Below, piece after piece: positions 7,266-18,847 of a stretch of DNA of 64,000 nucleotides (positions are counted from its first letter, which is position 1; every line of letters starts with the position of its first letter). Origin of the DNA: Paracoccaceae bacterium (GTDB lineage: Bacteria > Pseudomonadota > Alphaproteobacteria > Rhodobacterales > Rhodobacteraceae); assembly GCA_016778765.1 (NCBI GenBank), contig JADHOV010000004.1:1-64000 (forward strand), in the 5' to 3' direction. The position numbers were made by a program, and so were the translations under genes. The notes below the pieces were generated by a model that saw only the letters and a list, made by a program, of their open reading frames with translations, was not told the DNA's origin and made no database searches.

Positions 7266-8804
7266 CTACGCGAAATCGGCGGCGAACTCGTCAAGAGCAG
7301 CTTTGATTCTATCTTGGGCTTCGCCTTTGATCTTTGGATCCTCATCGGTGATGAAGGCCAATAGATCTGCATGCTTGCCGCGCAAGTGCGCCAAAAGCCC
7401 TTTTTCAAAGCGACCAACATCGCCCACGCTGATCCCATCTAAATAGCCATTAGTTCCCGCGAAAATCACGCAGACAATCTCGGCATTGGTCAAAGGGGCA
7501 TATTGGGGCTGCTTCATCAGCTCTGTCAGGCGCGCGCCACGGTTTAGCAATTGCTGCGTGGCCACATCAAGATCTGAGCCAAACTGGGCAAAGGCTGCCA
7601 TTTCGCGATATTGCGCCAATTCCAGCTTCACAGGGCCGGCGACTGTTTTCATCGCTGAGGTTTGCGCCGAAGATCCAACGCGTGACACCGACAGACCGGT
7701 GTTCACCGCGGGGCGGATGCCCTGATAAAACAGTTCGGTTTCCAAAAAGATTTGGCCGTCCGTGATCGAAATCACGTTGGTTGGAATAAAGGCTGACACG
7801 TCGCCGCCTTGCGTTTCAATTACCGGCAGCGCCGTCAAAGATCCCGCACCATTGTCTTCGTTCAGCTTTGCAGAGCGCTCTAGCAGACGTGAATGCAAAT
7901 AGAAAACATCGCCCGGATAGGCTTCACGTCCGGGTGGACGGCGCAGCAGCAATGACATTTGACGATAGGCCACAGCCTGTTTGGACAAATCATCATAAAT
8001 GATCAGCGCATGGCGGCCATTATCGCGAAAATGCTCGGCCATAGCTGTGGCTGAATAAGGCGCCAAAAATTGCAAAGGTGCCGGGTCCGACGCGGTCGCC
8101 GCAACCACGATTGAATAAGCCATCGCACCGGCTTCTTCCAGTTTCTTCACCAATTGGGCAACCGTTGAACGCTTTTGACCCACGGCCACATAGACGCAAT
8201 ACAATTTCTTGCTTTCGTCGTCGCCAGCCGCCTCATTATAGGATTTCTGGTTCAAGATCGTGTCCAGCGCAATCGCCGTTTTACCGGTTTGGCGATCGCC
8301 AATGATCAACTCACGCTGGCCGCGGCCAATCGGGATCATCGCGTCAACAGATTTCAGACCCGTGGCCATCGGCTCATGCACCGATTTACGCGGGATAATG
8401 CCCGGCGCCTTCACATCCGCAACGCCCCGCGTTTTGGTTGCAATCGGCCCTTTGCCATCCAACGGGTTGCCAAGACCGTCAACCACGCGGCCCAAAAGCG
8501 CATCACCAACGGGAACATCCACGATTGATTTGGTGCGCTTGACTGTATCGCCTTCAACGATATCGCGGTCAGATCCGAAAATAACCACACCCACATTATC
8601 GGCTTCTAAGTTTAATGCCATGCCTTGGATGCCGCCGGGAAATTCAACCATTTCGCCCGCTTGCACATTATCAAGACCATGAACCCGTGCGATGCCATCT
8701 CCAACAGAGAGCACGCGCCCCACTTCTGCCACTTCGGCCTCTTGACCAAAGTTTTTAATCTGCTCTTTGAGAATTGCAGATATCTCGGCTGCTTGGATAC
8801 CCAT
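7266..8804 (-). CDS. atpA: ATP synthase F1 subunit alpha
   Basis: Non-catalytic nucleotide-binding alpha subunit of F1, 512 residues. The N-terminal part has [21 protein letters not shown], the P-loop is [11 protein letters not shown] near residue 170, and the [11 protein letters not shown] segment near residue 370 holds the arginine finger region. The start ATG follows the atpH stop TAA directly, with AGAGGT seven bases upstream of the start, so translation is likely coupled. Confidence 0.99.
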
Positions 8805-9365
8805 TTATCCGACCTCTTTCATTACGTTCTGAAGGGCGTTAAGTTTGGACCTGATCGACGTATCGATCATCTTAGATCCCACCTTAACAATTAAACCACC
8901 GATAAGATCTTTATCGACAGCAGCATTAATTTTCACATCCTTGCCAATCTGCGCTTTTATCGCGGCAGTCAACTTGTCGGTTTGCGTTTTGGTAAGCGCT
9001 TTGGCGGATGTCACATCCGCCGTTTCTTCGCCCTTTTGCTCAGCAATCAGCGCGCGCAACTGGCCAATCAAGGCCGGCACAACAAACAAACGCCGCTTGC
9101 TAGCCATCAAAGCCAAGGTGTTTGATAGATCCTCCGACAGCCCCAATTTCGCGGCCACAGCCCCTATCGCCTGGCCCTGCGTCCCACGGCTCAACAAGGG
9201 CGATTTGAGCATCGCGTTCAAATCCGCGCTCACATCAAGCGCCTCGGATAAAACATCAATGTTTTTTTCAAGCTCAGCGACTTGATCCGCCTCTTGAGCG
9301 ATTTCGAAAACTGCCAACGCATAACGGGCAGCGATGCTGGACGTAAAAGAAGCTGGTTCGGACAC
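8805..9365 (-). CDS. atpH: ATP synthase F1 subunit delta (stator)
   Basis: Delta subunit that joins the top of F1 to the b-subunit stalk. The frame is open further upstream to 9446, but the GTG at 9365 is preferred: GGAAGG lies just upstream and the protein then begins SEPASF...IAARYALAVFEIA, the family N-terminus. That gives 186 residues, the normal size. The C-terminal signature GGLIVKVGSKMIDTSIRSKL is clear. It is the first gene of atpHAGDC; the F0 genes are not in this window, as usual in this group. Confidence 0.95.
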   Translation of the reverse strand: MSEPASFTSSIAARYALAVFEIAQEADQVAELEKNIDVLSEALDVSADLNAMLKSPLLSRGTQGQAIGAVAAKLGLSEDLSNTLALMASKRRLFVVPALIGQLRALIAEQKGEETADVTSAKALTKTQTDKLTAAIKAQIGKDVKINAAVDKDLIGGLIVKVGSKMIDTSIRSKLNALQNVMKEVG

Positions 9366-9541
9366 TGTTATCCTTCCACTGTCAGGCCAGATCAGACCTC
9401 GCATCACGCGATCATCACTAAGCGTTAGAAGATCTGCGCAAAGCAAATCAATAAAATCGGGGCACGTTTAGCAGAGCCTTCAACGCCTAGCAACCTCCCT
9501 TATTACATTTCCCAAGGTCAAAAAAATTCTATAAAAACAAA

Positions 9542-9558
9542 GTGTTTTTTAAAAACAC
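9542..9558. repeat. A/T-rich perfect palindrome upstream of the atp operon
   Basis: GTGTTTTT-T-AAAAACAC lies in the 263-nt gap between atpH and the methyltransferase gene, which points the same way. The surrounding 100 bases are unusually A/T rich compared with the coding sequence. It may be part of the atp promoter region or a terminator for the methyltransferase transcript; the sequence does not decide. Confidence 0.35.
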
Positions 9559-9628
9559 AAGCTATTGCCTATTTTTAAGCCAAAAAAATCACACCGTGAT
9601 ATCGAAAAACACGATTCCTCAGCCAAAC

Positions 9629-10396
9629 TCAGCAGCGTTCTTTCGCCCGTTCTAAGGCCGGTTTCGGATCAGCGGCACGCAACCCTTCTAGAACGCGCAA
9701 GGGTCGGGCGCGCAAGGCGGGGGTTTTCAGCCCCGGCAGTGGCGGCGTGCGCGTTGAAACTTCCAGCATCAATACGCCGCCGGCAAGCCGCGGCAGGCGA
9801 TTGCCAATACGTTCAAGAAACGGTCCCATTTTTTGCCAACTGCGCCGATTGGAGGGGATCTGAAACAAAGCAGCCGAGGCTTTTTGCGGCAAAAACCCGT
9901 GAAGCCGCAACTGTGTTTCCAGCTGGCTGGTGCTGTAAGGCCTGCCAAACCCCATTGGCGTTTTGTCACTGCGCGACCACAATCCGGCCCGGTTGGGCAC
10001 GATAAAAAGCGCCCGCCCACCCGGCCCCAAAACACGGTAAGCTTCTTGTAACACGGTATTGGCATCCTCGCTGGTTTCTAATCCGTGTAAAACGATCAAC
10101 CGATCCACATGCCCCGTTTCAAGCGGCCAAAACCGCTCGTCGGTCAGAACCGATACGTTCTGTGACGGGTTGGGCCAAGCCAGCACCCCCTGAGGGCCTG
10201 GCATTAAGGCAATCACGCGGCGCGCCTGGGGCAAAAAGGGCCGTAATAAAGGGGTTGCGAACCCAAAGCCGGCAATGGTTTGGCCGCTCAGATCTGGCCA
10301 AAACTGCAAAACTTTATTGCGCAATGCGCGCTGCGCGGCGCGGCCAAGCGGCTCACGATAATAAAAGTTTCGAAGATCTTGTACATCAAGATGCAT
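9629..10396 (-). CDS. SAM-dependent class I methyltransferase of unknown substrate
   Basis: A 255-residue cytoplasmic protein with a Rossmann methyltransferase domain. Motif I is degenerate ([12 protein letters not shown], residues near 40), and the later part reads [14 protein letters not shown] and [21 protein letters not shown], typical of Methyltransf_11-type proteins. It is divergent from gloB, with 62 nt between starts; this neighbour pair recurs in Rhodobacteraceae, but the substrate is not known. An AGAGGT ribosome binding site precedes the start. Confidence 0.75.
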
Positions 10397-10458
10397 TGCA
10401 CCGACCTCTCGGATACGCCAAACTTAGATCAGTGTAGCAAGTGAAAGAAGGATTGCCT

Positions 10459-11226
10459 ATGCCATATGAGCTGATAACCATCCCCTGCCGATCGGATAAT
10501 TACGCGTTCCTTCTGCGCGATCACGCCAGTTGTGAAACGCTTCTGGTTGATGTGCCCGCCGCGGCCCCAATCCTTGCAACCTTGACAGAAAAAGCGTGGT
10601 CTCTCACGCATATTCTATTAACGCACCATCACGATGATCATGTTGCGGGCTTGGCAGATGTTTTGGCCGTGCATCCCGCGCAAGTGATCGGAGCCGCCGC
10701 GGATCAACATAGATTGCCCAGCTTGAACCGAGCGGTTGTCGCGGGGGATACGCTTGCTATCGGATCGCAAAGGGGGCGCGTGATGGATGTGCCCGGGCAC
10801 ACGGTGGGGCATATTGCGGTTTATTTCGAAGCGGCCAAGTTACTCTTTTCTGCTGACAGTCTGATGGCGCTGGGTTGCGGCCGCTTATTTGAAGGGACGG
10901 CAGAGCAAATGTGGCAAAGCTTGGATGCGATGCGCAACCTGCCGGCAGACACGCTGGTATGCTCGGGGCATGAATACACGCTGGCCAACGCGAATTTTGC
11001 AATAACAATAGAACCGCAAAATACGGATTTGATCAAACGCCAGGCGGATACGATCGCGGCCAATCAACAGGGCAAGCCAACGGTTCCTTCGCGTCTATCA
11101 CTAGAGCGCGCCACCAATCCATTCTTAAGGCCTGAAAGCCCCGAGATCCGAGAGCGGTTGCAAATGCCCCGCGCCAGCAATGCGAAGGTTTTTGCCGAGA
11201 TTCGGCGTCTAAAAGATAAGTTTTAG
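10459..11226 (+). CDS. gloB: Hydroxyacylglutathione hydrolase (glyoxalase II)
   Basis: Hydrolyses S-D-lactoylglutathione to D-lactate and glutathione, the second step of methylglyoxal detoxification. A metallo-beta-lactamase fold with the binuclear metal motif THHHDDH at residues 55-61, a further metal His in DVPGHTVGHI and CSGHEYT in the C-terminal part. With the ATG at 10459 it has 255 residues; AGAAGGA lies 6 nt upstream. A GTG 18 nt earlier is less likely. It is close to a D-lactate-type oxidase only in the wider sense (36 kb), so no operon link is claimed. Confidence 0.95.
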   Translation: MPYELITIPCRSDNYAFLLRDHASCETLLVDVPAAAPILATLTEKAWSLTHILLTHHHDDHVAGLADVLAVHPAQVIGAAADQHRLPSLNRAVVAGDTLAIGSQRGRVMDVPGHTVGHIAVYFEAAKLLFSADSLMALGCGRLFEGTAEQMWQSLDAMRNLPADTLVCSGHEYTLANANFAITIEPQNTDLIKRQADTIAANQQGKPTVPSRLSLERATNPFLRPESPEIRERLQMPRASNAKVFAEIRRLKDKF

Positions 11227-11255
11227 TTATTAAATTCGCTATGAAAAGGGGAAAA

Positions 11256-11321
11256 ATGAACAAACTGGCACAGTTTTCGCAAAAAAGACTTGAAGCCGCA
11301 AAAATAACGACCACACTTTAA
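11256..11321 (+). other. Possible 21-residue leader ORF upstream of clpA
   Basis: A short frame, MNKLAQFSQK and eleven more residues, starts at an ATG preceded by AAGGGG. It lies in the 151-nt gap between gloB and clpA, ending 56 nt before clpA. It might be a small leader peptide or chance; nothing else supports translation. Confidence 0.2.
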
Positions 11322-11377
11322 TGTGTAGAAATCATGTTGGGGGCGATCCCTGACGCAACTTAACAGGAGCACCCAAC

Positions 11378-13708
11378 GTGCCTTCATTTTCAACCACGCT
11401 CGAACAGGCAATCCACGCAGCTCTTGGCTTAGCAAATAAGCGATCGCATGAATTTGCAACGCTTGAGCATTTGCTCTTGGCGTTGATGGATGAGCAAGAC
11501 GCAGCGCGCGTATTGCGCGCCTGCGACGTGGATACAGAAGAGTTGCGTGAAACCTTGGTTGAATTCATCGAGACCGATCTGGCATCTTTGGTGACCGAAG
11601 TGGAAGGATCAGAGGCGGTGCCCACTGCTGCGTTCCAGCGGGTGATCCAACGCGCCGCGATCCATGTCCAATCGTCGGGCCGCACCGAAGTGACCGGCGC
11701 AAACGTTCTGGTTGCGATCTTTGCTGAACGCGAATCCAACGCGGCTTATTTTCTGCAAGATCAGGAAATGACGCGCTATGATGCGGTTAATTTCATCGCG
11801 CATGGCGTGGCCAAAGACCCCAATTTTGGCGAAGCACGGCCAGTCTCGGGCTCACCCGAATTCGAAGAGGAAACCAATGCGCCTGAAAACGTAAAAGAAG
11901 AAGAAAAGAAAGAATCGGCGCTGGCCAAATATTGCGTTGATTTGAACGCCAAAGCAGGAGAGGGCGATATTGACCCGCTGATTGGCCGCAGCCATGAGGT
12001 TGAGCGCTGCGTGCAGGTTCTGTGCCGTCGGCGCAAGAACAACCCGCTTTTGGTCGGCGATCCCGGCGTGGGCAAAACGGCCATCGCTGAAGGCCTAGCC
12101 CGCAAAGTGGTTTCCGGGGAAACCCCGCAAGTTTTGGCCAACACCACGATCTTTTCGCTTGATATGGGCGCCTTACTGGCCGGGACCCGCTATCGTGGCG
12201 ATTTTGAAGAACGCCTCAAAGCGGTGATGAATGAATTGGAAAGCCATCCGGATGCGGTCTTGTTCATTGATGAAATCCACACCGTGATTGGCGCAGGTGC
12301 CACCTCGGGTGGCGCTATGGATGCCTCAAACCTGTTGAAGCCCGCGCTGCAAGGTGGAAAATTGCGCACAATGGGTTCGACCACTTATAAAGAATACCGC
12401 CAACATTTTGAAAAGGATCGTGCGCTCAGCCGCCGCTTCCAAAAAATTGATGTAAATGAACCCAGTGTCGATGATGCGGTAAAAATTTTGCAAGGTATCA
12501 AAGGCTATTTTGAAGAGCATCACAGCATCAAATATACCGGTGATGCGATCAAATCAGCTGTTGAGCTGTCAGCGCGCTATATCAATGATCGCAAGCTACC
12601 AGACAAAGCCATTGACGTGATTGATGAAGCTGGCGCCGCGCAGCATTTGGTTGCAGAAAGCAAGCGGCGCAAAACCATAGGGATCAAAGAAATCGAAGCG
12701 GTGGTGGCGAAAATTGCGCGTATTCCACCCAAAAATGTCAGCAAAGACGATGCTCTGGTGCTGAAAGATCTTGAAACCAGCTTGAAACGGGTGGTCTTCG
12801 GGCAGGATCCGGCGATTGACGCGCTGGCCTCAGCAATAAAACTTGCGCGGGCCGGATTGAGAGAGCCGGAAAAACCCATAGGCAGCTATTTATTCGCCGG
12901 GCCTACCGGTGTTGGGAAAACAGAAGTTGCCAAACAACTGGCCGATAGCCTTGGCGTCGAGATGCTGCGCTTTGACATGTCCGAATATATGGAAAAACAC
13001 GCGGTCAGCCGGTTGATCGGCGCGCCTCCGGGTTATGTTGGGTTTGATCAGGGCGGGCAATTGACGGACGGGATTGACCAGCATCCACATTGCGTTTTGC
13101 TGTTGGATGAGATCGAAAAAGCCCATCCGGACGTATATAATGTGCTGTTGCAAGTGATGGATCACGGCACTCTCACAGACCATAATGGCCGCTCGGTTGA
13201 TTTTCGCAACGTGATTTTGATTATGACCTCGAATGCCGGTGCGGCTGAACAGGCGAAATCGGCGATCGGATTTAACCGCGACCGCCGCGAAGGCGAAGAC
13301 ACTGCCGCGATTGAACGGCAGTTTACGCCCGAATTTCGCAACCGGTTGGATGCTGTGATAAGCTTTGCACCATTGCCGAAACCCGTCACCATGCAGATTG
13401 TTGAAAAGTTTGTTCTGCAACTTGAAGCGCAATTGATGGACCGGCATGTCTCAATCGAAATCACTGAAGCCGCCGCCGAATGGCTGGCAGATAAAGGCTA
13501 TGATGAAAAGATGGGTGCCCGCCCATTGGGCCGGGTGATCCAAGAGCATATCAAAAAGCCTCTGGCCGAAGAATTGCTGTTTGGAAAGCTGGCCAAGGGC
13601 GGCTTGGTGAAGGTTGGCGTGCGCAAAGGCGAATTGCATCTTAAATTGGAAGGGCCGCAAAATCCGCGCCTGACAAATAATAAGCCGCCTTTGCTGACCG
13701 CAGATTAA
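11378..13708 (+). CDS. clpA: ATP-dependent Clp protease ATP-binding subunit ClpA
   Basis: AAA+ unfoldase that feeds substrates into ClpP and, with the adaptor ClpS, degrades N-degron proteins. It has 776 residues: the double Clp-N domain, D1 with Walker A GDPGVGKT near residue 227, and D2 with GPTGVGKT near 507. The FIDEIHTVIGAGATSGGAMD stretch is D1 Walker B and LLDEIEKAHPDV is D2 Walker B. There is no long middle domain as in ClpB. The start is GTG with AGGAG 8 nt upstream. clpS is not adjacent but lies at 40.4 kb on the other strand. Confidence 0.97.
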   Translation: MPSFSTTLEQAIHAALGLANKRSHEFATLEHLLLALMDEQDAARVLRACDVDTEELRETLVEFIETDLASLVTEVEGSEAVPTAAFQRVIQRAAIHVQSSGRTEVTGANVLVAIFAERESNAAYFLQDQEMTRYDAVNFIAHGVAKDPNFGEARPVSGSPEFEEETNAPENVKEEEKKESALAKYCVDLNAKAGEGDIDPLIGRSHEVERCVQVLCRRRKNNPLLVGDPGVGKTAIAEGLARKVVSGETPQVLANTTIFSLDMGALLAGTRYRGDFEERLKAVMNELESHPDAVLFIDEIHTVIGAGATSGGAMDASNLLKPALQGGKLRTMGSTTYKEYRQHFEKDRALSRRFQKIDVNEPSVDDAVKILQGIKGYFEEHHSIKYTGDAIKSAVELSARYINDRKLPDKAIDVIDEAGAAQHLVAESKRRKTIGIKEIEAVVAKIARIPPKNVSKDDALVLKDLETSLKRVVFGQDPAIDALASAIKLARAGLREPEKPIGSYLFAGPTGVGKTEVAKQLADSLGVEMLRFDMSEYMEKHAVSRLIGAPPGYVGFDQGGQLTDGIDQHPHCVLLLDEIEKAHPDVYNVLLQVMDHGTLTDHNGRSVDFRNVILIMTSNAGAAEQAKSAIGFNRDRREGEDTAAIERQFTPEFRNRLDAVISFAPLPKPVTMQIVEKFVLQLEAQLMDRHVSIEITEAAAEWLADKGYDEKMGARPLGRVIQEHIKKPLAEELLFGKLAKGGLVKVGVRKGELHLKLEGPQNPRLTNNKPPLLTAD

Positions 13709-13761
13709 AACAGCGCGCATCTGACCGGCGGGTTCAAAAGCGGCCGGTTATGCTGCCAAAG

Positions 13762-13777
13762 GCCCAAGGGCTTGGGC
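13762..13777. terminator. Hairpin between convergent clpA and the OmpA-like gene
   Basis: GCCCAAG-GG-CTTGGGC is a strong inverted repeat in the 96-nt convergent gap. It has no run of T on either side, so it may be a simple stem that protects mRNA ends or a weak terminator. Confidence 0.35.
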
Positions 13778-13804
13778 TAGCAAACTAGGCCGCGTTCTGT
13801 CTCT

Positions 13805-16153
13805 TTAGCGTTCGGTTAATTTCAGCTCAATGCGCCGGTTTTGGCTGCGGGCCTGCGCGGTGTTTGCCGTATTGACGGGTTGGAATTCAGCAAAGCCATT
13901 CGCCGCCAAACGGTCAGCCGGTATATTAAGCTGCGAAATCATGAATTTGACAACGGATAAAGCGCGCGCCTGGCTCAGCTCCCAATTGTCTTTGAATTCT
14001 CCCGTGCCGCTCAGCGGTTGGTCATCCGTATGCCCATCAACGCGGATAATCCAATCTATATTCTGCGGAATTTCCGACATAATCTTATTCAATATGCTGC
14101 CCACTTTTACGATTTCGCTCTGGCCAAGCTGCGAAAGCTCGGCCGCGCCGGGGGCAAATAACACCTCTGAAGAAAACACAAACCGATCGCCGACAATGCG
14201 TACCCCAACTTGATCCGCGAGCAATATGCGCAAGCTTCCAAAAAATTCTGATTTATATTTGGCCAGATCTTCGGCTTGGCTGGCCAAAAGATCGCGCTCG
14301 GCCTCTAGTTTAAGCTTTTCCGCCTCGAGCCTTTGGCTCTCGGCCTCTTCCAGTTTTAAACGGCGCCGCTGCTCGGAAGCGGCCCGCGCCAAAGCCGCAT
14401 TGAGCCGGTTACCAAGGTTTTGCAGCTGCGCCTGACTTTCGATATCTTTCTCTTCGGAAATCTCCAATAAATCACTCACTTTCGCCAATTGCTGCCGCAA
14501 TGCGGTAACCTGCTGGTTCAACGCGGCAGCTTGGCGCTCTGCCTTCAAAAGCTGCGCGTCGCTTTGTTGCAACTCTTGCGACGTGTCCAGCAAGGTCTGC
14601 TGGGCTTGCTGTAGCAAAATTTTCTGCTGTTCGCGCGCATCAAGCTGCGCGGCAAGATCCTGATCGGCTGCGAGTTTCGCCGCCAAGGCAGCCTTTAATT
14701 GCGCGGCCACTTTGTTCATATCGGTTTCGGCGGCCAATTTCGCGGCAAGCGCCGCCGCTAGGTTTTCTTCCAAGCTGGCTTTTGCCGTTTCAGCCTGCGC
14801 GATTTGAGCGGCCTGCGCGGCGGCTTGATTTGCCGCCTGGCTCGTCGTCGCGTCAAGCTGTTTTGTCGTCTCATCGACCTTCGCTTGCAGAAGCGCGCGC
14901 GCATCTTCTGCCTGCGCAACGGCAGCCAAAGCTGCGCTGAGCTGCGCCTGTAAGGCTTTTGCGAGCTCAAGCGCGCTGGATTGATTATCTTGGCTTTCCG
15001 TTCGACTTTTTTCGCTGTTGGACAGCGCAGTTTGCAAACGTTTGATCGCATCCGCTTGCTGGGCCTGGGTTTGCGATAAAGTGCGTTCTTGTATTTCCAA
15101 CTGCGCCCTTTGGCGCTGCAAGGCGGCGATTTGATCTTCCAACAATACTTGCCGCGCAAGCGCTGCGGCCAAAGCCACTTCGGTTTGATCCAGCTCTGCA
15201 GCGCTATCGGTAACCTTCGATTGCAGGCGCTGAATATCTTGATCGCGATCGGCCAATTGCAGCTGCGCTGCATTTAACGCCAACACGCTGTCTTGCAGAC
15301 GCGCCGCAACGAGTTCCTGCGCGGCTTCGGCCGCCGCCAACATGGTAAGCGTTTCTTCCGCTGCGCGGCGCTGTTCTTCCAATGCCAAGCTCATCGCTGT
15401 TAATTCCGCATCGGCATTTTCAAGCTTTTTGCGCAGCGCCTGCGCCGCCGCAGCTTCCAAAAGACGGGCTTCCTCCTCGGCGCTTAAGCGCTGCTGGAGC
15501 GACTGCAGATCCGCAGATTGCTGGTTTAAGAAACTTTTTTGATCGCTATTTTCGGTTTTCAGCGAAGCAATCAAGGCTTCAAGCGCATCGCGCTCTGCCG
15601 CTTTGCGGCGCGCTTCTTCTACCGATTTGTCAATTTCTGAGCGCGCCGTTGCAAGGGCCAAATTCAACGCCTCTTGCTGAGACATCAAAAGAGATTTTTC
15701 GCCTTCCAAATCGACAATCTGCGCGGTTTTCTCGCTTTGGCTTTTTAAAAGGCCGGCAACCTGCGCCTCAAAAGAGGTAATTTTCGCCTGCGCACTGACC
15801 AATTGTTGCTGCGTTGAATCGCGCTGAAAAGTAAGTTGATCGATCAAGTTGGCCTGCGCCATCAATTCGGTTTGGGTATCGCTTAACGTAGAGGTCAAGG
15901 CGCCCACTTCGCCTTTTAAAGCGCTCACTTTTTCTTGCTCGAGGCCAAGCGCTTCTGCAATCGCAGCGATCTCCGCACTTAGCAGGTTAAGTTCATTTTC
16001 TTGCCCTGTGATGGTTTCGCGTAAGACGAATTGAACAACCATAAAAATGGTTAAAACAAACATTAACACCAAAAGAAGGCCGGTCATCGCATCCACAAAA
16101 CCCGGCCAGATTGAGGCTTGAAATCGATGACCAGTTCGGCGGGAAAGTGCCAT
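13805..16153 (-). CDS. MotB/OmpA-like inner-membrane protein with a very long coiled coil
   Basis: A 782-residue protein. A short cytoplasmic N-terminus is followed by one membrane segment (about residues 19-43) containing FVDAMTGLLLVLM, with Asp21 at the place of the proton-channel Asp of MotB/ExbD-type stators. Residues from about 45 to 630 are nearly all Ala/Gln/Glu/Leu-rich heptads. The C-terminal ~130 residues are an OmpA-like peptidoglycan-binding domain (RVDGHTDDQPL, NWELSQARALSVV, SQNRRIELKL). The start is 2 nt from the stop of the ExbB/MotA-like gene, so the two form a stator-like pair. It is not a flagellar MotB: no flagellar genes are nearby and the coil is far too long. Its role is unknown; cell-envelope work is inferred. 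Confidence 0.8.
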   Translation of the reverse strand: MALSRRTGHRFQASIWPGFVDAMTGLLLVLMFVLTIFMVVQFVLRETITGQENELNLLSAEIAAIAEALGLEQEKVSALKGEVGALTSTLSDTQTELMAQANLIDQLTFQRDSTQQQLVSAQAKITSFEAQVAGLLKSQSEKTAQIVDLEGEKSLLMSQQEALNLALATARSEIDKSVEEARRKAAERDALEALIASLKTENSDQKSFLNQQSADLQSLQQRLSAEEEARLLEAAAAQALRKKLENADAELTAMSLALEEQRRAAEETLTMLAAAEAAQELVAARLQDSVLALNAAQLQLADRDQDIQRLQSKVTDSAAELDQTEVALAAALARQVLLEDQIAALQRQRAQLEIQERTLSQTQAQQADAIKRLQTALSNSEKSRTESQDNQSSALELAKALQAQLSAALAAVAQAEDARALLQAKVDETTKQLDATTSQAANQAAAQAAQIAQAETAKASLEENLAAALAAKLAAETDMNKVAAQLKAALAAKLAADQDLAAQLDAREQQKILLQQAQQTLLDTSQELQQSDAQLLKAERQAAALNQQVTALRQQLAKVSDLLEISEEKDIESQAQLQNLGNRLNAALARAASEQRRRLKLEEAESQRLEAEKLKLEAERDLLASQAEDLAKYKSEFFGSLRILLADQVGVRIVGDRFVFSSEVLFAPGAAELSQLGQSEIVKVGSILNKIMSEIPQNIDWIIRVDGHTDDQPLSGTGEFKDNWELSQARALSVVKFMISQLNIPADRLAANGFAEFQPVNTANTAQARSQNRRIELKLTER

Positions 16154-16155
16154 GA

Positions 16156-17364
16156 TCAGCCCTTATCATCAGAGCTGGTTGATCCGCCGTCACCCGATGG
16201 CCGGCTGGCGCTGGCATGCAAAATTGCAGCGCTCAAAGCGTTTATTTCTGCGCGCAACGCCACGGTGCTTTCCTGGCGGCCCGCGGCCATTTCTTCGGTC
16301 AGATGCAAAAGCTGAACATCAATCGAGCGCAAACGCATGCGGCTTTCAGCATCCGCCGCCTCGCTATTTTCAATATTGCGTAAGACTTCAAGCAGCTTTT
16401 CTTGGCCGCCCGCCACCCGCAATAACGCCTCATTGCTGGGTGCGTTGGCCTCGATCCGAGCGGTCAACTGGTTCAGGCTTTCCGACAAGCCCCGCAACCC
16501 ATCATCCACCATGGCCCGCCCCGCATCCGCTTGCGTAAACATCATTTGCATGGCTTCCATATTCTCGTTCATTTGATCCAGCACGGTGCCCAGAATATTT
16601 TGTTCATGGCTGGCTTCGCCATCCCCGTCACCGGACGAAAATCCCAAACGCGTGATCGAGGAAAGCCATTCCTCCAATTCCCGGTAAAAGCGGTTTTGGC
16701 CGTGGCTGGCAAACAGCTCTAAAAGTCCCACCACCAAAGAACCTGCCAATCCCAGCAACGAGGATGCAAAAGCAATTCCCATACCGCCAAGCTGGCTTTC
16801 CAGCCCGTTCATCAACCGGCTAAAAACGGCAAAACCCGACTCGCCCGCTTTAGGGGCCAAAGAGCGGATGGTATCAACCAAGGCAGGCACCGTGGTTGCC
16901 AACCCGTAAAACGTGCCCAAAAGCCCCAAAAAGATCAGCAGATTAACGATATAGCGGGTGATCTCCCGTGCTTCTTCGATCCGCGTTCCAACCGAGTCTA
17001 GGATCGAGCGTGTTGAAGAGGCAGCAATTTGCATCCGCGCGCCGCGATCACGCAACAAAGTTGCCAGCGGTGCCAGCAGCTGCGGGGCCTTTGACCCGGA
17101 AATACCTTGATTGCGCACAAAGCTTTCGATCCAGCGCACCGATGAGGCCAACTGAAACACCTGCACAAAGCAACTGATCACCCCGATACAAAACACCAAA
17201 CAGATAAAGCCGTTCAACCAAAGGTTGGATTGCACCACCGGCATGATGCGCGGCGCGGCAATGACAGCGCCAAAACCGGTTAAGCCAACCACAAGCAACA
17301 TCATCATACCTTGGCGTATGGGTCGCGAGAACTGAAGTTTAAGCTCTAGATCAGCTTTATGCAT
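16156..17364 (-). CDS. MotA/TolQ/ExbB-type proton-channel protein
   Basis: A 402-residue inner-membrane protein with about four membrane segments (roughly 18-38, 50-72, 135-160 and 197-222). The last two carry the family core NLLIFLGLLGTFYGLATTVP and GMGIAFASSLLGLAGSLVVG. After the membrane part comes a cytoplasmic tail of about 180 residues predicted to be mainly helical. It lies between chaC and the OmpA-like gene on the same strand (gaps 29 and 2 nt). It would supply the ion channel of a stator whose B subunit is the neighbour. The partner driven by this motor is not visible. Confidence 0.82.
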   Translation of the reverse strand: MHKADLELKLQFSRPIRQGMMMLLVVGLTGFGAVIAAPRIMPVVQSNLWLNGFICLVFCIGVISCFVQVFQLASSVRWIESFVRNQGISGSKAPQLLAPLATLLRDRGARMQIAASSTRSILDSVGTRIEEAREITRYIVNLLIFLGLLGTFYGLATTVPALVDTIRSLAPKAGESGFAVFSRLMNGLESQLGGMGIAFASSLLGLAGSLVVGLLELFASHGQNRFYRELEEWLSSITRLGFSSGDGDGEASHEQNILGTVLDQMNENMEAMQMMFTQADAGRAMVDDGLRGLSESLNQLTARIEANAPSNEALLRVAGGQEKLLEVLRNIENSEAADAESRMRLRSIDVQLLHLTEEMAAGRQESTVALRAEINALSAAILHASASRPSGDGGSTSSDDKG

Positions 17365-17393
17365 GATGTTTTACCTTGATTGGGAAACAGAGC

Positions 17394-17963
17394 CTATCCA
17401 TGGCTGACACCGGGGGAGGCCCCCCGACCCTTTTCGGCAAGCCTTGCACGGACATTTTGTGCAAGCCATTGAAGATCAGCATCCTGGATCGACAACTTCT
17501 CCATTTGTTCAACCGTTTTAAACAGATATTCACTATTATCGCCACGCCCACCGCGCGCCGTTGCAATAATGCGAGCTTGCTCCTCCAATGACAAGCCTTG
17601 GCAGTATTGATCATTGGTTTGATCGATCACATAGGCCAAAGCCTCAAGCTGCCCGCCCTCTGGCAAATCTAAACGCACGGTTTTTTCGTAATACGCGGAT
17701 GAGACCAGCTCGCGGTCTCTCAAATAGGCAAGAACTTGTGTTTCATCTTCGGGCGCGATACGAAAGGCCAAACCATCACAAATCGCCGCGTTGGCAGCGT
17801 CTAATGCCAACACCAAACCGGGCATAGCAGGCGTGCCGCGATGATGGATCGACCGCATGCAAAAATTACGGCGATAGCCACTCAACCGCGCCAACCGCTT
17901 TTCCACATAGTCAAAGCCCGGGTTCCACAATAACGACCCATAGCCAAAAACCCACATTTGCAT
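17394..17963 (-). CDS. chaC: ChaC-type gamma-glutamylcyclotransferase
   Basis: Breaks glutathione to 5-oxoproline and Cys-Gly. The 189-residue protein begins with the family signature VFGYGSLLWNPGF, followed by RRNFCMRSIHHRGTP, and has the later ETQVLAYLRDRE and GGRGDNSEYLF segments. The Glu of the AYLRDRE segment is at the expected place for the catalytic acid. GGAAGGG precedes the start by 10 nt. It may be the first gene of a transcript with the ExbB/OmpA-like pair, though no functional link is evident. Confidence 0.88.
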   Translation of the reverse strand: MQMWVFGYGSLLWNPGFDYVEKRLARLSGYRRNFCMRSIHHRGTPAMPGLVLALDAANAAICDGLAFRIAPEDETQVLAYLRDRELVSSAYYEKTVRLDLPEGGQLEALAYVIDQTNDQYCQGLSLEEQARIIATARGGRGDNSEYLFKTVEQMEKLSIQDADLQWLAQNVRARLAEKGRGASPGVSHG

Positions 17964-18028: not shown

Positions 18029-18847
18029 ATGCAACGTTTGATTATTCTCGTATTGGGTATCGCGATCCTTTGGTCCGGGTTTTGGTTCTGGGGGGCGGAA
18101 CGCAACAAGGCCGGTATTGCGGCCCTGGTCGCGGGAGCTGAAAAGAGCGGATGGCAAGTTCAGTTTGACCAGATCAGCCAAATGGGAATTCCAAATCGCT
18201 ATGATGTCACCTTGCGTAACCCGCAAATCGGCAATGCTGCGGGTACATTCGATTGGCAAGCGGCGTTTTTGCAAATCATGCGCCTGACCTACACCCCGAC
18301 CCATTGGCTTGTTATTTGGCCCGACACGCATGATTTAACGCTTGCAGGTCAGCCCGTGCGCCTCACCAGTCAAACTTTGCGCGCCTCGGTAACCCAGAGC
18401 GAGGGCTCGCAATGGCGCGCAACGGCAACCGCTGAAAATTTAACCTTTACCGCCAATCCAGGTTTAAGCTTACCCGTTGAAAACGTACAAATTTCGATCG
18501 AACAACGCTTGGAGAAAACACGCTTTTACGCTAAGGGAACCACCGCGCAACCGCTCAGCCCCAACGCAGAGATGACGCTAGAGCTTTTCGCCGACCTGCG
18601 GGATATGCGCGACGTTAAGGCAACGCTATCGGCCCAGAATATAATTATAAAAATGAATGGAAAAACGCTTATTTCTGATGGTATGGTGGATTTTTATGAG
18701 GACGTGCCCCCCAAAGGCTGGCTTGGCATTAAAGTGGCAAACCTAAACAGCGGCTGGGCCGTGTTAACCGCGCTGCTGCTGCCCCTAAAAGCCCTTTTGG
18801 GCGATCAAGTGGCCGATATTTCTTTAAAATTTGATTTGGGCAGCTGA
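18029..18847 (+). CDS. DUF2125 family membrane-anchored protein
   Basis: A 272-residue protein with an N-terminal membrane anchor or signal (LIILVLGIAILWSGFWFWGA) and a periplasmic beta-rich region with RYDVTLRNPQI and TYTPTHWLVIWPD, matching the alphaproteobacterial DUF2125 family. These proteins resemble AsmA-like or lipid-transfer beta-sheet proteins in pattern, but the function is unknown. AAGGGG lies before the start. It is divergent from chaC with 65 nt between them. Confidence 0.8.
   Translation: MQRLIILVLGIAILWSGFWFWGAERNKAGIAALVAGAEKSGWQVQFDQISQMGIPNRYDVTLRNPQIGNAAGTFDWQAAFLQIMRLTYTPTHWLVIWPDTHDLTLAGQPVRLTSQTLRASVTQSEGSQWRATATAENLTFTANPGLSLPVENVQISIEQRLEKTRFYAKGTTAQPLSPNAEMTLELFADLRDMRDVKATLSAQNIIIKMNGKTLISDGMVDFYEDVPPKGWLGIKVANLNSGWAVLTALLLPLKALLGDQVADISLKFDLGS

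Follow-up and report, generated by a model that had tools for sequence, protein, structure and literature searches.

A conserved alphaproteobacterial gene pair encoding a candidate wall-anchored motor with a long proline-free coil in its B subunit

The window analysed here is a stretch of 64,000 nucleotides from a Paracoccaceae bacterium genome (assembly GCA_016778765.1, contig JADHOV010000004.1) that is 97.5% complete. On its minus strand lie two genes, called A and B below, with B downstream of A. The interval 13805-17963, in which they had been noticed, also takes in a separate gene for a ChaC-type gamma-glutamylcyclotransferase, which is a conserved neighbour and stands outside the A-B pair. 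The features are the following.

13805..16153, minus strand: gene B, 782 aa, with a transmembrane (TM) helix, a coiled coil and an OmpA domain, member of NCBIfam NF006542 (ORF, profile score)
13835..14161, minus strand: B residues 665-773, peptidoglycan-binding domain of OmpA type, containing the GHTD motif
14288..16003, minus strand: B residues 51-622, coil of 572 residues without Pro or Cys, heptad period 3.50
16019..16105, minus strand: B residues 17-45, transmembrane helix, the Asp21 codon being at 16091-16093
16156..17364, minus strand: gene A, 402 aa, channel subunit of MotA/ExbB/ZorA fold with four TM helices and a cytosolic tail (ORF, alignment, AF2 model, fold matches)
16159..16647, minus strand: A residues ~240-402, helical tail in the cytosol, which varies among relatives or is missing from them (alignment, AF2 model)
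16699..16953, minus strand: A residues 138-222, core of the channel formed by TM3 and TM4, in which Thr151 and Ser202 are invariant (alignment)
17394..17963, minus strand: ChaC-type gene

The original prediction had described a MotA/ExbB-type channel with a tail of 180 residues, encoded 2 nt away from a MotB-like partner. The ORF coordinates gave the same 2 nt spacing between A and B, and the A protein was found to fit this description, with a tail of ~180 residues starting at about residue 222. Its score against the Pfam MotA_ExbB model was 17.9 bits, below the cut-off of 22.9, and that of the S. meliloti orthologue was 23.9 bits, above it. Modelled by AF2 (pLDDT 74.5), A showed four TM helices, and matched TolQ, ExbB and ZorA with VIA-align Z scores of 10-12, and MotA with scores of 8.4-9.8. 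Since unrelated helical proteins reach Z 8-10 in the same list, this fold match is supportive, and neither decisive nor a proof. Strict conservation was seen around TM3-TM4, where Thr151 (TM3) and Ser202 (TM4) are invariant in an alignment of 18 diverse A proteins. These two residues align with Thr148 and Thr181 of ExbB, polar TM residues of known role.

The sole TM helix of B carries Asp21 (IWPGFVDAM...), a residue that is invariant in 16 full-length relatives. Taken together, A and B display the sequence features of MotA/ExbB/ZorA motors: a two-gene unit, a TM acidic residue in B, and polar Thr and Ser residues in TM3 and TM4 of A. The C-terminal domain of B, proposed from the outset to be of the peptidoglycan-binding OmpA type, scored 54.1 bits, where the cut-off is 27.2. 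Its GHTD motif and the diaminopimelate-site Arg (LSxxRA) are intact, and invariant in 12 of 12 aligned relatives (D87 and R107 in the numbering of the alignment segment), and the domain is predicted to bind diaminopimelate and peptidoglycan. By fold search, this end of B matched MotB and OmpA domains, including the complex of OmpA with a peptidoglycan peptide (3td5). The AF2 model of full-length B (pLDDT 71) consists of helices 17-220, 230-386, 391-526 and 534-646, followed by the OmpA/MotB-type domain; being a model of a single chain, it cannot tell a parallel dimer from a fold-back coil. Weak matches of B to Smc/MukB hairpins were set aside as evidence.

Between the two ends of B runs the coil, which had been estimated at ~580 periplasmic residues and assigned to the B rather than the A subunit. 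Both sequences agree with this placement, and the length found was 572 residues. No proline occurs in B between residues 18 and 667, and no tandem repeats were detected by TRF in the window coil. Among 56 distinct B proteins, the length of the coil spanned 96 to 2,153 residues, and not a single Pro or Cys was counted over 25,227 coil residues. The hydrophobic period was between 3.48 and 3.54 in all of the 47 proteins tested first, and 3.54 in the longest one. An indel of 10 residues in the coil separates even near-identical strains, and the median B open frame is 652 aa in Rhodobacterales versus 449 elsewhere, a comparison between related genomes for which the p-value is descriptive only. The lack of Pro and Cys over so many residues points to a continuous helix under selection: judged from sequence, selection holds the coil as an unbroken helix, and its length is not fixed. 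No earlier description of this constraint was found in the literature.

The giant orthologue at 7906-14997 (+) of locus L072 encodes 2,363 aa, and its coil of 2,153 residues is likewise devoid of Pro and Cys. The gene contains about six near-identical 339-bp repeats together with diverged copies, and may be an assembly artefact.

Taking a rise of 0.1485 nm per residue, the straight coil would measure ~85 nm in the window protein and ~320 nm in the giant one. The periplasm is a few tens of nm wide. The 572-residue coil thus exceeds any periplasm several times and does not simply span the distance from inner membrane to cell wall, so that a fold-back, or a path along the envelope, has to be considered. 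For the same reason, the suggestion that the pair works over a long distance in the envelope is doubtful as originally worded.

B was found in 244 of the 245 genomes of the order Rhodobacterales, covering 102 of 102 genera, and nearly always in single copy. In a survey of 144 genomes of Alphaproteobacteria, A was present in 99, B in 97 and both in 96; the two genes were adjacent at 89 of 101 A loci. Outside the class the pair is rare. When 120 genomes across the phylum were searched, 2 of ~89 non-alphaproteobacterial genomes matched, one hit being ZorA3 (genome G425) and the other an adjacent A-B pair (genome G470). Orthology over hundreds of genomes excludes chance, and the near-universal, single-copy pattern indicates vertical inheritance. 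On the strength of these sequence surveys, A-B is a single-copy core locus of Alphaproteobacteria.

Three unusual cases were recorded. Genome G372 has, beside the standard pair, a second A-B pair of 260 and 433 aa (L158, 3481-5596, +). In genome G030, A is in its usual efp-suhB setting (L063, 3676-4818, +) and B was not found, adjacent or elsewhere. In another alphaproteobacterial genome, a 1,499-aa protein (L164, 2625-7124, +) joins a channel core like that of A and ZorA to a helical tail of great length, and here too B was not found.

The gene order in Rhodobacterales is gloB-clpA-[B-A-chaC]-DUF2125. Both the ChaC-type gene and the divergent DUF2125 gene (18029-18847, + in the window) are conserved neighbours throughout the order. 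Of 38 Rhodobacterales loci, 21 have a gene for an M23 peptidase (for instance L033, 9389-10366, -) that separates clpA from B; it is absent from the window. In other orders, the common arrangement is thiE-sel1-efp-suhB-X-A-B. A search for a conserved third gene, which the original prediction had called for, was thereby answered in most of these orders: gene X is found directly upstream of A at 67 of 101 A loci, with a median gap of 64 bp. Examples are as follows.

L066, 6124-7011, plus strand: gene X
L067, 5426-6535, plus strand: gene X
L167, 2502-5879, plus strand: gene X

The X proteins are secreted and 292 to 1,125 aa long, mostly proline-rich, with a middle region containing 8-30% proline. 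Their C-terminal OmpA-like domain scores above the Pfam cut-off, and the Asp of GHTD is not conserved there. X was also matched in 12 surveyed genomes that lack A, and was not found in the 3 Rhodobacterales genomes of the class survey. Outside Rhodobacterales, no significant link was detected between absence of X and length of B (p = 0.24).

Two sets of published observations favour a role of the pair in envelope growth. In S. meliloti Ak57 (CP090106), the same strand carries sel1, suhB, A and B one after the other. Gene tags were counted back from RgsC (SMc04010, M15 domain, equated with LZK74_31090, Peptidase_M15_2), with one IS element skipped. The Sel1-repeat protein reached in this way, LZK74_31010, corresponds by count to SMc03995, that is RgsF. 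By gene-order counting, the S. meliloti pair is therefore two genes from the polar-growth gene rgsF. RgsF is an essential periplasmic protein with six Sel1-like repeats, found at growth zones and linked to Tol-Pal (PMC7327166). SMc03994 is labelled ribosomal protein S21 in one paper, where our count expects suhB. By the same count, SMc03993 may be gene A; the envelope-stress regulator ChvI binds a fragment of DNA that lies within SMc03993 (PMC3687685). Rhodobacterales loci have neither an rgsF-like neighbour nor X.

The second set concerns Komagataeibacter hansenii, which has no flagella and nevertheless carries a 'motA' and a 'motB' gene side by side, coding for 348 and 321 aa (PMC6570709). 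The products are located at the cell poles, and overexpression elongates the cells (PMC6570709). Going by protein size, by 4-TM and 1-TM-OmpA topology, and by a match at 98% coverage to a Rhizobium 'OmpA/MotB domain protein' (PMC6570709), this pair likely belongs to the same family. It is probably orthologous to A-B, as judged by description rather than by sequence. The K. hansenii genes were studied by overexpression and GFP fusion only, and were described as motility genes (PMC6570709).

Known examples of ion-driven 5:2 motors serve flagella, Tol, Ton, gliding and Zorya. For A-B, the analysis established the sequence and domain make-up, the residues that are conserved, the order of the genes, where the pair occurs and how the coil is constrained; how many subunits assemble, whether ions flow and parts rotate, where the pair acts and what it does are inferred. 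Five A subunits would probably surround the TM helices of two B subunits (A5B2). Ions would pass Asp21 of B and the polar sites Thr151 and Ser202 of A, and their passage would make A turn or rock against B. The axle would be the dimer of B, its two-stranded coiled coil running through the periplasm and its OmpA ends holding the peptidoglycan; a simple radial axle cannot be right, since a rod of 572 residues greatly exceeds the width of the periplasm. Such a housekeeping device would most likely exert force on the cell wall at zones of envelope growth or division, and in most orders the secreted, OmpA-like X may act jointly with it. To the whole of this reading, in which a wall-anchored motor driven by ions serves envelope growth or division, we give a probability of about 0.58. 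Its parts are not equally firm: the motor architecture is likely, and the role in envelope growth or division somewhat better than an even bet. Against the reading stand the MotA_ExbB score of A in the window, which is below the cut-off, the S21 label of SMc03994, and the lack of X and of an rgsF-like neighbour in Rhodobacterales. More speculative, and in our opinion unlikely, is the idea that the B dimer coil, up to 2,153 residues or ~320 nm if straight, lies flat within the envelope or is wound up like a rope. A rotary motor in the inner membrane could then reach wall sites tens to hundreds of nm away, with species tuning this reach by coil length and X serving as the partner at the far end.

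Other explanations must be weighed against this motor. B could be a passive tether, its coil a spacer from peptidoglycan to inner membrane and A an anchor or a gated leak, no mechanical work being done. A coil whose length varies freely is what a spacer would show, A belongs only remotely to the motor superfamily by its MotA_ExbB score, and motion of A-B is an inference. Yet a pure tether would not need Thr151, Ser202 and Asp21, which are invariant over the class, nor does it fit the strict conservation of A around TM3-TM4, and we regard it as improbable. A motor for surface spreading, or for export of polysaccharide or protein, like those of gliding and type 9 systems, appears a little less probable again. 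Many motor relatives do power surface machines, and K. hansenii overexpression strains spread more and have altered cellulose (PMC6570709). The cellulose effect, however, tracks cell length (PMC6570709), no conserved outer-membrane or export gene was found beside A-B in the compared loci, and the pair is universal in an order whose members have very different surfaces.

A Zorya-type anti-phage defence motor deserves mention because the best profile matches of A are ZorA models, ahead of MotA_ExbB (34 bits with PADLOC, and 45.6 bits for the S. meliloti orthologue). With an A-family profile, E-values were 1.6e-11 for a bona fide ZorA3, 1.5e-4 for ExbB, 9e-4 for TolQ and 0.014 for MotA, a comparison which favours ZorA3, as the ZorA3 used had itself been found with the A profile. 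By profile, ZorA and ZorB are the nearest relatives of A and B. In a maximum-likelihood tree of A with TolQ, ExbB and MotA of E. coli and one ZorA3, the outgroups sat on very long branches and were not placed, so that "closest to Zorya" is a statement about profile scores. Membership itself failed: A scored 19.3 bits of the 500 required by the ZorA model NF033917, and PADLOC found no ZorC, ZorD or ZorE effector among ten neighbours. A-B is moreover core, single-copy and vertically inherited, and a defence role is very improbable. No ZorA1 was detected at a strict E-value across the class survey, in which the positive controls were silent too, so that this negative carries no weight.

A copy of a flagellar stator or of Tol-Pal, with which A-B has the superfamily and the OmpA domain in common, is hardly credible. 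MotA_N is absent from A and from the whole genome, in a search where positive controls matched, and a separate TolQ gene is present on another contig, which together refute both identities. Flagellar B subunits have a Gly/Pro-containing plug-linker after the TM helix (PMC12505986); B of the window lacks it and continues as an uninterrupted heptad coil. It carries an OmpA instead of a TolR domain, and no TolA, TolB or Pal gene adjoins the pair, the neighbours being clpA, chaC and DUF2125 genes. The claim that no flagellar, Tol or Zorya effector gene lies nearby was thus confirmed at the locus. Comparison with known families by HMM upheld the exclusion of flagellar and Tol membership, and brought out ZorA and ZorB as nearest profiles without making the pair a Zorya system.

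The ion-driven, wall-anchored motor remains our preferred reading. If it is true, Alphaproteobacteria, rhizobia and marine roseobacters included, would in their majority possess a further ion-driven 5:2 motor as a core component, and A-B would be the housekeeping counterpart of Zorya. A proline-free coil of freely varying length amounts to a natural experiment on force transfer through the periplasm. The B family is annotated already, as PRK09039 (NCBIfam NF006542 to NF006546, 'peptidoglycan -binding protein'), and B is a full member, with an NF006542 score of 691.2 bits for a curated cut-off of 388. It is uncharacterised: literature searched under the PRK09039 name contained nothing on a function, a partner in a motor, a constraint on the coil or an association with X. 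What is new here is the range of coil lengths free of Pro and Cys, and the third gene X.

Compared to known systems, A-B resembles flagellar MotA-MotB and PomA-PomB in having four TM helices in A, one TM helix and an OmpA domain in B, and an Asp in the B helix. It differs from them by the lack of MotA_N and of a plug-linker, by a B coil of 96-2,153 residues, and by its presence in a genome without flagellar MotA. Non-flagellar B subunits have recently been stated to have no OmpA-homologous domain (PMC12505986), and B of this pair is an exception. Like Tol-Pal, A-B is an envelope system whose A subunit has a TolQ-like fold, and in S. meliloti it has a gene close by that is connected with the Rgs/Tol growth factors. 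With Zorya it shares adjacent motor genes, an OmpA-type domain on B and a long helical extension past the channel (PMC11890865). In Zorya, the long tail is cytosolic and carried by ZorA (PMC11890865), whereas the coil of A-B is periplasmic and carried by B; and where Zorya is found in defence islands with effectors, A-B has no effector and is a vertically inherited core locus.
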